NCBI GenBank assembly: GCA_024709245.1
Contig: JANJXB010000110.1
Coordinates: 1 to 43,744 of the forward strand
From: Acholeplasmataceae bacterium
Lineage (GTDB): Bacteria > Bacillota_I > Bacilli_A > Acholeplasmatales > Acholeplasmataceae
Reading direction: 5' to 3'
DNA length: 43,744 nt
Shown: positions 20,992 to 37,309 of the stretch, piece after piece
How positions within the stretch are numbered: position 1 is the stretch's first letter
How the letters are laid out: each line of letters begins with the position of its first letter
Translations under genes and position numbers: made by a program
Notes under the pieces: generated by a model
The model's database searches: none
The model's input: only the letters and a program-made list of their open reading frames with translations
Told to the model about the DNA's origin: nothing

Positions 20992-21331
20992 GTCAATATG
21001 CATAAGCCATGTTCTGTCTCCCTTTCGGGTCGTGACCATTTATCTCTACCAAAGTAGCGTATGTTTGCTTCGATTGGCATCCATACGTGCCCCTACCAAA
21101 TTTGGGTTGCTAGCTTGAGGGGTTTACCGCGTTTCATTTCTTTGTTTCCAAAGAACTCGTCTCTGTGGCACGTTACGTCTAGATCATAGTTTCCCTTAGA
21201 TCATCGATCGCCGTTACGATTGATCGTACCCTAGGTTATTGTTTCCCTAGGCACAAACACTACATCCATCACAGGATGTGCTAGCATGGACTTTCCTAAC
21301 CGATTACTCGGCTCGATCACCTTCTATTGAC
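20992..21331 (-). ncRNA. rnpB: RNase P RNA, type B
   Basis: Catalytic RNA of RNase P, about 340 nt, which trims tRNA 5' ends. Read on the minus strand it has the conserved core pieces AGGAAAGTCCATGCT, GTAGTGTTTGTGCCTAGG, GTGCCACAGAGACGA, AACGCGGTAAACCCCTC, CAACCCAAATTTGGTAGGGG and AACATGGCTTATGC, in the order of the Bacillus RNA. P1 is GTCAATA (21325-21331) with TATTGAC (20992-20998), which sets both ends. The predicted start from its promoter falls on 21331. Confidence 0.97.
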
Positions 21332-33564: not shown

Positions 33565-35283
33565 TCACACTCCTGCTTTAATCTTAAGTTCTTCTAATTG
33601 AACGGGGTCGACATCACTCGGTGCCTGCATCATCATGTCTTTCGCACTTTGAGTCTTTGGAAATGCCACAACGTCTTTAATGTTGGTTGTATTGGTCATC
33701 AGCATGACGACTCTATCCAAACCAAGTGCAAGTCCTCCGTGAGGTGGTGTACCGTATTTTAATGCATCCACAAAGAATCCAAATCTGTTTTGAATATCAT
33801 CTTTGGATAAACCCAATGTATCAAACATCAAACGTTGCACTTCCTGATTGTGAATACGAATGGATCCTCCACCGATTTCATATCCGTTTAAGACAATGTC
33901 ATAAGCTTTCGCCATGGCATCTTTTGGGTTATTTTTGAGAGCTTCAGCAGAGACTGGAGCGGTAAATGGATGATGCTTCGCATAGAATCGATTTTCTTCC
34001 TCATTATATTCCAAGAGTGGCCAATCCACAACCCAAAGGAATTTATACGTGTTTGAAGGAATGAGGTTATAAAGATTCGCAAGTTCGATTCTAAGTGCTC
34101 CTAGAGCCGCAGAGACATGTTCAAAGTCATTGCCGGGGACAATGAATAAAACATTGGATTCTTTCAGCCCAAATGACTTCAATTGGTCTTCAGAAAGATA
34201 CTTGACGATGCTGCCTGAGTATTGACCTTTTTCAAACTTGATGTATGCCAGTGTATCGCCATGATTCTTTTTAACCACGTGTGAAAGATGATCGATTCTC
34301 TTTCTTGTGACATCAGAACCCTCTTCTAAGATGAGACCTCTGATGAACTTCTGATGTGTCAAAAGTGGTAAATCAACACCTGAAAAATAAGGTGCACAAT
34401 CAAAGATTTTCATTTCATAACGCATATCTGGCTTATCAGAACCATAAAGTGACAAAGCATCATGATAACTCATTCTCAAGAAAGGTGCTTTCACATCCAA
34501 ATGGAGTACTTTCTTAAATGTTTTCACGAGAATCTTTTCAACAATCGCTTGAATATCTTCCTGATCAACGAAGGAGGCTTCAATATCGACTTGAGTAAAC
34601 TCCGGTTGTCTGTCTGCTCTTAAGTCTTCATCTCTGAAACAGCGTGCAATTTGGAAGTATTTTTCCATACCTGCAACCATGAATAGCTGCTTATAGATTT
34701 GAGGTGATTGGGGAAGCGCATAAAAAGTCCCAGGATACAAGCGCGAGGGGACCAGATAGTCTCTTGCACCTTCTGGCGTTGATTTGCCTAGTATCGGTGT
34801 TTCAAGTTCATAGAACCCTTCTTCCACCAGTACACCACGAATCGCTTGCGTGATTTCGCTTCTTTTCATCAAGAATTGCTGCATGACGGGTCTTCTTAAG
34901 TCAAGATAGCGATATTTGAGTCTGGTGTCTTCTAATGCATCGGTTTCATTGGTAACCATGATGGGAGGTGTCTCTGCAGTATTCAAGATGATGAGTTCTG
35001 AAACTTCAACTTCGATGGCTCCTGTAGGTATGTTTAAATTCTTACTTTCACGTTCAATCACGACACCTTTGGCTTCAATGACATATTCATTTCGAATTTG
35101 TAGGGCAGTGCCATAAAAAGGATTCTCAGGTTTGATCACCAACTGAGTCACCCCATAGCGATCTCTTAAATCGATGAAAATAAGTCCGCCTAGATTTCTA
35201 ACTTTCGCAGCCCAACCTTTTAAATAAACCGAAGTTCCAACATGATGTTGATTCAATTCTCCATTGTGATGTGTATATTTCAT
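33565..35283 (-). CDS. aspS: Aspartyl-tRNA synthetase
   Basis: 572 aa class II synthetase. N-terminal OB-fold anticodon-binding domain (1-110), then motif 2 FRDEDLRADRQPEFTQVD, a bacterial GAD insertion domain (about 270-400) and motif 3 GLALGLDRVVMLM. Bacterial-type length. Its start overlaps the hisS stop by 4 bases (ATGA). It is under the T-box leader 1.8 kb upstream, whose specifier loop contains the Asp codon GAC. Confidence 0.97.
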   Translation of the reverse strand: MKYTHHNGELNQHHVGTSVYLKGWAAKVRNLGGLIFIDLRDRYGVTQLVIKPENPFYGTALQIRNEYVIEAKGVVIERESKNLNIPTGAIEVEVSELIILNTAETPPIMVTNETDALEDTRLKYRYLDLRRPVMQQFLMKRSEITQAIRGVLVEEGFYELETPILGKSTPEGARDYLVPSRLYPGTFYALPQSPQIYKQLFMVAGMEKYFQIARCFRDEDLRADRQPEFTQVDIEASFVDQEDIQAIVEKILVKTFKKVLHLDVKAPFLRMSYHDALSLYGSDKPDMRYEMKIFDCAPYFSGVDLPLLTHQKFIRGLILEEGSDVTRKRIDHLSHVVKKNHGDTLAYIKFEKGQYSGSIVKYLSEDQLKSFGLKESNVLFIVPGNDFEHVSAALGALRIELANLYNLIPSNTYKFLWVVDWPLLEYNEEENRFYAKHHPFTAPVSAEALKNNPKDAMAKAYDIVLNGYEIGGGSIRIHNQEVQRLMFDTLGLSKDDIQNRFGFFVDALKYGTPPHGGLALGLDRVVMLMTNTTNIKDVVAFPKTQSAKDMMMQAPSDVDPVQLEELKIKAGV

Positions 35284-36557
35284 TTTGTCTTTTTCTCCAT
35301 TTTTTCAAGCAGGTATTTCCTGATTTTAGGAATCAGTACTTCTTCCTGTACTTCTGTCTTGGTGTCCTTGATACCAACAACACCGCGATTAAATTCCTCT
35401 TCACCCAAAATAATCAAATATTGAGCATTCATTTTTAATGCTTGTTTTAACTGTCCTTTGAACGATTTTTGTGTATAGTTCGTATCAGCGACGATGTTGG
35501 CAGTTCTCAAATCATAAAGGATCTGAGTGGCTGTCGTTTTGTGTTTCGGATTGAATACGATGACATATGCATCAAGATTGCGTTCTGTCGCAAAATTGAC
35601 ATTTTCCGCTTCAAGAGCAAGAAGTAAACGTTCCATGCCACATGCAAAACCGATACCACCCAATTCAGGTCCACCCAATTCGGAGACTAGTTTTTGGTAT
35701 CGACCACCGCCACCTAAGACATTTTGAGCACCAAATCCTTCTATATCGGCCTCAATTTCGAAAACGGTATGACTATAATAGTCGAGTCCTCGAACAAGCT
35801 TAGGTGCGATTTCATAACTGATTTTAGCAGCATTCAAATGCTCCAATACTTCTTTAAAATAGTTTCTTGAAACATCATTCAAGAAATCTTGTGGCGTTGG
35901 AGCGTGTAAAACAGCTTCATGCTTTGCATCCACTTTGCAATCCAAGATCCGAAGTGGATTTTTCTCTAGTCTAATTTTGCAATCTTCACACAATGTTTCC
36001 TGGTGCGGTAAGAAATGCTGGTAGAGTGCGGATTGGAATGTCTTTCTCGACTCATCGTCTCCAAGACTATTGATTCTGACTCTGACACCTTTGAGACCCA
36101 GTCGCTTGATAAAATCGTATGCTAAAATAATCATTTCAGCATCAAGTGCAGGATCTACGGTACCAATCGCTTCCACACCAAACTGATAAAACTGACGATA
36201 TCTGCCTTTTTGAGGACGTTCATAACGGAAATTAGGTCCAATATAATAGACTTTTTCAAGTTCTTGAGATGCATACAACTTATTTTCCACATAAGCACGG
36301 ATGACTCCTGCAGTGCCTTCTGGTCTCAAAGTTAATCGGCGATCCCCTCGATCATCAAAATCATAGGTTTCCTTAGTCACCATATCGGATAATTCCGATT
36401 GTCTATGAAATACTTCACTGTACTCCATGATGGGTGTTCGAATTTCCTTGATGCCATACAAGGCGAGAACTTCCCTGATTTTTTGTTCAAGAGCTTGCCA
36501 TAAATACGATTCGGTTGGTAAAACATCATAAGTGCCTTTCACTTTGTTGACTGCCAT
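35280..36557 (-). CDS. hisS: Histidyl-tRNA synthetase
   Basis: 425 aa class II synthetase. GTYDVLPTES N-terminus, motif 2 LRPEGTAGVIR and FRYERPQKGRYRQFYQFG, HisA motif LVRGLDYYSHTVFE and a C-terminal anticodon-binding domain. GGAGG precedes ATG 36557. The hisS-aspS order is the common Firmicutes arrangement. Its first 32 bases overlap the end of the GNAT gene. Confidence 0.97.
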   Translation of the reverse strand: MAVNKVKGTYDVLPTESYLWQALEQKIREVLALYGIKEIRTPIMEYSEVFHRQSELSDMVTKETYDFDDRGDRRLTLRPEGTAGVIRAYVENKLYASQELEKVYYIGPNFRYERPQKGRYRQFYQFGVEAIGTVDPALDAEMIILAYDFIKRLGLKGVRVRINSLGDDESRKTFQSALYQHFLPHQETLCEDCKIRLEKNPLRILDCKVDAKHEAVLHAPTPQDFLNDVSRNYFKEVLEHLNAAKISYEIAPKLVRGLDYYSHTVFEIEADIEGFGAQNVLGGGGRYQKLVSELGGPELGGIGFACGMERLLLALEAENVNFATERNLDAYVIVFNPKHKTTATQILYDLRTANIVADTNYTQKSFKGQLKQALKMNAQYLIILGEEEFNRGVVGIKDTKTEVQEEVLIPKIRKYLLEKMEKKTK

Positions 36558-37116
36558 GATAATCCTCCTTGGTCATTTCATAGGTATACATGTCATCCTC
36601 GATGACTCGGGCTGCTTTTTCTATCCTAAAGGGTTCAATACTTTTAAGTTTAAAGGGTGCTTTACTGATGACTTTCTGACTCGCTATGTTTTGGCCTAAA
36701 TGTCGGATACGAATGTAGTCATAGCCAAGATAGTCAAAACCTACTTTAATCATCTCTTTTAATGCTTGGGTCATGATACCCTTGTTCCAATAATCATGAT
36801 GTAAAACAAATCCAATTTCAGCACCTTGTTCATCTTTTATTTTACTATGAAAGTCGATTGTCCCAATCATTTTTGATGTCTTTAGATCAACGATGGCATA
36901 ACCGATGGGTAAACCCTTCTTGAGTCTGGGGTAAAAGATGTGTTGAATGGATTTTTTCGCTTCCTTTGGGATACTGAAGGGTCCCCAGGATAAATAGCGC
37001 ACGACCTCATGGTTCTTTCCATAATCAAACATATCCTTATAGTCTTTTTGAGTAATGGTTCTGAGCATGATGTCATCGAATGTGATTACAGGCATGTGTT
37101 TGTAAGGTTTTTTCAT
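36526..37116 (-). CDS. GNAT N-acetyltransferase (RimJ/RimL-like)
   Basis: 196 aa. An acetyltransferase fold of the ribosomal-protein-alanine acetyltransferase type: LRTITQKDYKDMFDYGKN, IGTIDFHS, EIGFVLHHDYWNKGIMTQALKEMI (acetyl-CoA loop, with a divergent form of R-x-x-G-x-G/A) and SQKVISKAPFK. Substrate unknown. It is the first gene after the T-box leader, between the leader and hisS, and overlaps hisS by 32 bases; acetyltransferases of this type occasionally modify aminoacyl-tRNA analogues, but nothing in the sequence shows that. Confidence 0.85.
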   Translation of the reverse strand: MKKPYKHMPVITFDDIMLRTITQKDYKDMFDYGKNHEVVRYLSWGPFSIPKEAKKSIQHIFYPRLKKGLPIGYAIVDLKTSKMIGTIDFHSKIKDEQGAEIGFVLHHDYWNKGIMTQALKEMIKVGFDYLGYDYIRIRHLGQNIASQKVISKAPFKLKSIEPFRIEKAARVIEDDMYTYEMTKEDYHGSQQSERHL

Positions 37117-37274
37117 TTTTTGCTCCTAAAAAATAAAAACGTCCCCATCTCTAAGGACGTCAACGACGCGGTACCACCTTAGTTCTAGATTGCTCTAGCC
37201 CTCATTATTGTTTGTGTGTCTCATTAGGGTGTCACATCCATAAGGATCTCCTAAATCACAGACGATTGAATTAC
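37117..37274 (-). promoter_or_regulatory. T-box riboswitch leader (Asp, possibly Asp/His)
   Basis: On the minus strand: a short stem I (37218-37263) with a kink-turn-like base (GTC/GAC closing, GA on each strand), 5-bp stem TTAGG/CCTAA, an internal loop containing GACAC (37229-37233) and a 4-bp cap ATCC-TTAT-GGAT. Next comes stem III CTAGA-GCAA-TCTAG (37185-37198). The T-box sequence TGGTACCGCG (37167-37176) lies in antiterminator CTAAGG/CCTTAG (37177-37182, 37151-37156). The competing terminator is ACGTCC/GGACGT (37155-37160, 37139-37144) plus a T-run. Uncharged tRNA should favour the antiterminator and transcription. Confidence 0.9.
37126..37160 (-). terminator. T-box regulated terminator
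   Basis: Minus strand ACGTCC with GGACGT, 10-base loop, followed by TTTTATTTTTT. Its 5' arm shares two bases with the antiterminator 3' arm. Confidence 0.85.
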
Positions 37275-37280
37275 ATATTC

Positions 37281-37309
37281 ATAGTAACTGATTTGATGCA
37301 AAAAGTCAA
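37281..37309 (-). promoter_or_regulatory. Promoter of the T-box leader
   Basis: Minus strand TTGACT (37304-37309), 17 bases, TACTAT (37281-37286). The -35 abuts the dtd stop codon. Confidence 0.8.

Follow-up and report, generated by a model that had tools for sequence, protein, structure and literature searches.

A genuine, compact, transcription-terminating T-box heads an operon comprising genes for a GNAT-family acetyltransferase, histidyl-tRNA synthetase (hisS) and aspartyl-tRNA synthetase (aspS) in the 43,744-nucleotide stretch of Acholeplasmataceae DNA analyzed here (the window). The element (37309-37128, minus strand) consists of a promoter, a 46-nucleotide stem I, a 19-nucleotide linker, stem III, an antiterminator and a terminator (Table 1). 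Judging from its conservation, it very probably acts as a minimal transcriptional T-box for uncharged tRNA-Asp, with the GNAT-hisS-aspS operon under its control.

Architecture of the leader

The original prediction had described a compact stem I with a kink-turn base, five base pairs, a specifier loop and a four-base-pair cap, followed by a complete antiterminator, T-box and terminator, and each of these parts is present on the minus strand. The lower helix of stem I is formed by UUAGG/CCUAA, and the 3′ strand of the loop above it reads GUGACAC (37235-37229). In the T-box model alignment, the T-box AAGGUGGUACCGCG lies at 37180-37167 and its UGGU bulge at 37176-37173; the T-box UGGUACCGCG, stem III, antiterminator and terminator are all complete. 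The leader was also said to stand in front of hisS-aspS. This holds for the operon, although the gene immediately downstream is that of the acetyltransferase, and hisS and aspS come after it. The upstream neighbor is dtd, the gene for D-Tyr-tRNA deacylase. Most leaders of the same family are found about 620 nucleotides before hisS, which leaves room for the GNAT gene; in L204, as in numerous other Bacilli, hisS directly follows the T-box.

Table 1. Leader elements and operon genes, with positions in the window and supporting evidence.
Feature	Position	Strand	Evidence
Sigma-70-type promoter, TTGACT-17-TACTAT	37281..37309	-	Sequence; equivalent promoter at fixed T-box distance in relatives
Compact stem I, 46 nt, GUC to GAC	37218..37263	-	Covariation in 27 distinct short stem I sequences
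Kink-turn 5′ strand, GUC-UGU-GA	37256..37263	-	GUC/GCC covaries with GAC/GGC in relatives
Kink-turn 3′ strand, GA-GAC	37218..37222	-	Sequence; pattern in relatives
Cap hairpin AUCC-UUAU-GGAU, 4 bp, in place of distal elbow-binding arm	37236..37247	-	Sequence varies, pairing kept in relatives
Specifier GAC (Asp); next base is purine A37230	37231..37233	-	GAC in 74/76 usable hisS leaders
CAC (His) overlapping GAC, judged incidental	37229..37231	-	His codon missing from frame in 19/76
A-rich unstructured linker in stem II position, ending in purine stretch before stem III	37199..37217	-	Fold energy 0
Stem III, CUAGA/UCUAG	37185..37198	-	T-box model alignment; sequence
Antiterminator with T-box	37153..37180	-	T-box model alignment; UGGU/UGGC in 78/78 hisS leaders
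Intrinsic terminator, 10-bp hairpin and U-run, sharing antiterminator 3′ strand	37128..37161	-	Hairpin -12.6 kcal/mol
GNAT-family acetyltransferase, operon gene 1	36526..37116	-	Pfam PF13302, 91 bits
hisS, histidyl-tRNA synthetase	35280..36557	-	PF13393
aspS, aspartyl-tRNA synthetase	33565..35283	-	PF00152, PF02938

Two domains expected in a full T-box are missing, as had been claimed. The small cap takes the place of the distal arm, and a hidden longer stem I has no space because the promoter sits just upstream at a conserved distance. The interval from promoter to T-box in relatives is about 102 nucleotides for most short forms, versus about 147 nucleotides for long forms. The start of the transcript, roughly UGUAAUUNAAUCGUC, is conserved from the promoter to the kink-turn (L014-L037) in short and long forms alike. 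Stem II is absent because the 19-nucleotide linker to stem III is unstructured, and folding leaves this linker open in nearly all short relatives as well.

The Rfam T-box model (RF00230) matches the leader weakly, with 39.6 bits and an E value of 2e-7. This does not reach the gathering cut-off of 93, which is a threshold set by the curators and not a biological feature. The model expects domains that the leader lacks; the features by which RF00230 members are recognized, namely a UGGN bulge in the antiterminator, a specifier codon plus purine in stem I and a competing terminator, are all found. The only Rfam match within the window that exceeds its cut-off is a bacterial class B RNase P RNA (20998-21328, minus strand, 251 bits). 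Folding of the single leader sequence is unremarkable (z -1.07), and therefore the case for more than chance structure rests on conservation and covariation among relatives.

Short leaders in relatives

The short form is common to 30 leaders, including that of the window, and one further leader is shorter still. All 30 contain a G(U/C)C-type kink-turn strand, a helix, a cap, GUGAC plus a purine, a second helix strand and GA-GAC, a pattern that was itself demanded by the regular expression used to collect them. Leaders were compared by a covariance model and by fixed-length pieces, since with MAFFT alone the cap and the seven-nucleotide loop variants came out misaligned. Among the 27 distinct short stem I sequences, 96.9% of cells are paired, compared with 75.0% in shuffles, and 70 cells carry double changes, compared with 18.1; because the cap pairs were chosen by best complementarity, these values are inflated for the cap helix. 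Double changes are also found in helices 1 and 2, whose pairs were not chosen in this manner. Sliding the partners relative to one another lowers pairing to 35-53%.

Short forms occur in the genera coded g1, g3, g4, g18, g20, g22 and g23, and long forms that retain the full elbow-binding arm occur in g1, g16, g17, g22 and family f5, some of them belonging to the family and genus of the window. An intermediate hairpin is present in L032. The shortest leader (L088, 2282-2387) apparently carries its GAC specifier, here within GACAA, in an 11-nucleotide apical loop above the kink-turn. Genome G057 has the same leader (L213). The genome of the window is grouped by its family code with Acholeplasma sp. 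OttesenSCG-928-E16, and G057 bears that code as well.

In a tree of HisS proteins (49 rows), short and long forms are interspersed. Parsimony requires seven switches between them, compared with about 15 in shuffles, and at least five are forced by well-supported branches. The arm appears to have been lost repeatedly from a full T-box ancestor. The tree itself gives no direction; loss is favored since one arm motif is common to the long forms. The interspersion might also stem from gene transfer or conversion involving the leader. Long-armed hisS leaders of the same family and order, when read individually, apparently also lack stem II, and so this domain seems to have been the first to go.

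Candidate tRNA ligand and alternative readings

The specifier was read by eye in 76 usable hisS leaders, omitting the truncated L017 and counting L088/L213 once, and the UGGN base was tabulated in 78. GAC is present in 74 of the 76; among the 78, 49 have U and 29 have C as N, and none has A or G. The leaders are related, so neither these counts nor those for the overlapping codon are independent. As originally proposed, this combination favors Asp over His, since UGGU and UGGC suit G73 and never C73. In relatives, tRNA-Asp carries G73. No tRNA-Asp was detected in the incomplete genome of the window, for which G73 is taken from those relatives and would form only a wobble pair with UGGU. The tRNA-His of this genome has C73 and an encoded G-1. 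One of the two exceptional specifiers, AAC in L097, apparently specifies Asn and would fit if the AspRS of that organism also charges tRNA-Asn. The other is GGC in L192 (also L225 and L242), a long-armed hisS leader of the same family in which the overlapping CAC is retained; this possibly reflects a change in specificity or an assembly error.

The original prediction went further in suggesting that GACAC might serve two tRNAs, tRNA-Asp through GAC and tRNA-His through CAC after a two-base register shift, and it looked to relatives that keep only one codon as evidence to the contrary. Both codons are present in the window and in 48 of the 76 leaders, the operon encodes both synthetases, and PMC4342826, citing Gutierrez-Preciado 2009, mentions sensing of both tRNAs by hisS-aspS T-boxes. 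In addition, CAC persists in L192 despite the loss of GAC, and its last C may be unpaired in the window, where the seven-nucleotide loop variant is shared with L014 and L020. However, the overlapping frame reads CAC in 49 leaders (48 as GACAC, plus L192), CAU in eight and no His codon in 19, and these 19 are spread over several genera and Bacillota lineages. In two of five g20 leaders and one of two g4 leaders CAC is gone, so that its loss must have occurred repeatedly, even inside single genera. Moreover, the base after CAC is a pyrimidine, and in most short relatives the last C of the codon pairs with G to open the lower helix. The absence of G at UGGN leaves C73 of tRNA-His unmatched, an argument that is strong but not absolute because this base can be internally paired (PMC7778990). 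Dual decoding is therefore improbable, and many leaders indeed keep a single codon.

Another reading, which we consider very unlikely, is that the leader is a decaying T-box remnant whose sensing arms are gone and whose response to tRNA has been lost. It would account for the lack of both domains that normally aid tRNA binding and for a score far under the Rfam cut-off. Yet long-armed hisS relatives miss that cut-off too, and continued selection is suggested by 30 leaders of several genera in which the stems covary, GAC and the T-box are conserved and the terminator is intact. There is hardly any likelihood that part of stem I, or a stem II, has been overlooked. The Rfam alignment does pair sequence further upstream, but the standard full-length stem I that it suggests in a covariance search covers the promoter (37309-37281), whose distance from the T-box is fixed in relatives, and this alignment was rejected as wrong. 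Furthermore, the linker does not fold, and leaders throughout the family are matched by a covariance model derived from the short form.

A minimal T-box for tRNA-Asp is thus preferred. The GAC specifier would pair with the GUC anticodon of tRNA-Asp, and the kink-turn and flexible linker might give the tRNA 3′ end (GCCA) access to the UGGU bulge. Base pairs formed at this bulge would stabilize the antiterminator and allow transcription to continue. Conversely, charged tRNA-Asp would be unable to engage the bulge, such that the terminator would form. The overlapping CAC would be incidental, and the leader presumably descends from a full T-box that lost stem II first and the distal arm of stem I later. 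Binding of tRNA could be weak, given that both known affinity aids are missing.

Relationship to known T-box classes

A GACAC loop in hisS-aspS T-boxes is already published and hence is not new; PMC5313534, citing Gutierrez-Preciado 2009, describes mainly Asp sensing for these RNAs. The published T-box and that of the window have the same operon genes, the same loop, transcriptional control and Asp as the presumed main ligand. However, homologous long hisS leaders keep the distal stem I arm, and those of many Bacilli also keep stem II, whereas the window element has neither.

T-boxes are divided into four classes, in which binding is augmented by an elbow-binding motif, by stem II or by both (PMC10482949). 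The distal motif that marks classes I and II is missing from the window element, as is the stem II domain of classes I, III and IV. Like class II (Bacillus subtilis glyQS), the element is transcriptional, lacks stem II and has a flexible linker after the kink-turn, but the stem I of glyQS is long, bears the elbow-binding motif and reads Gly, whereas the window element is predicted to read Asp. Class IV (Actinomyces odontolyticus ileS) is similar in its intermediate stem I, internal-loop specifier and lack of the motif, yet it has stem II and is mostly translational, where the window element has a terminator. Class III (Nocardia farcinica ileS) likewise combines a short stem I with no such motif, but differs in its apical-loop specifier, required stem II and translational control. 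The L088 leader resembles class III in its apical specifier loop, although it too lacks stem II.

For the gatCAB T-box of Clostridium acetobutylicum, Saad reportedly proposed in 2013 that a single specifier loop carries codons for two tRNAs. The hisS leaders share the proposal with this RNA, but their second codon is not conserved, and a two-codon T-box would need both codons to be conserved and a T-box base suited to both tRNAs.

In the open-licence literature, we found no description of short or minimal transcriptional T-boxes or of T-boxes from Mollicutes. As far as could be found, therefore, a natural T-box without the elbow-binding arm and stem II is new and falls outside the four described classes. 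We lean toward regarding it as a fifth architecture, one that would work during transcription through codon-anticodon pairing, the kink-turn and the 3′-end contact alone, with the L088 form as its extreme, and that arose on several independent occasions within the Acholeplasma family. If so, such RNAs would define the minimum for tRNA sensing during transcription. Because close relatives have long, intermediate, short and apical forms at the same locus, it should be possible to measure directly what each part contributes.

Elements of this type score under the standard annotation cut-off and probably escape notice. Short-looking model matches outside hisS leaders turned out to be T-boxes of tyrS, alaS and ileS with a full arm; such T-boxes were also the strongest non-hisS matches among those opened in an order-wide search. 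The Rfam model finds ten stronger T-boxes in the genome of the window, and all ten keep the distal stem I arm on reading. Other T-boxes of this genome, L009 and L010 (ileS), likewise keep the arm but apparently lack stem II.
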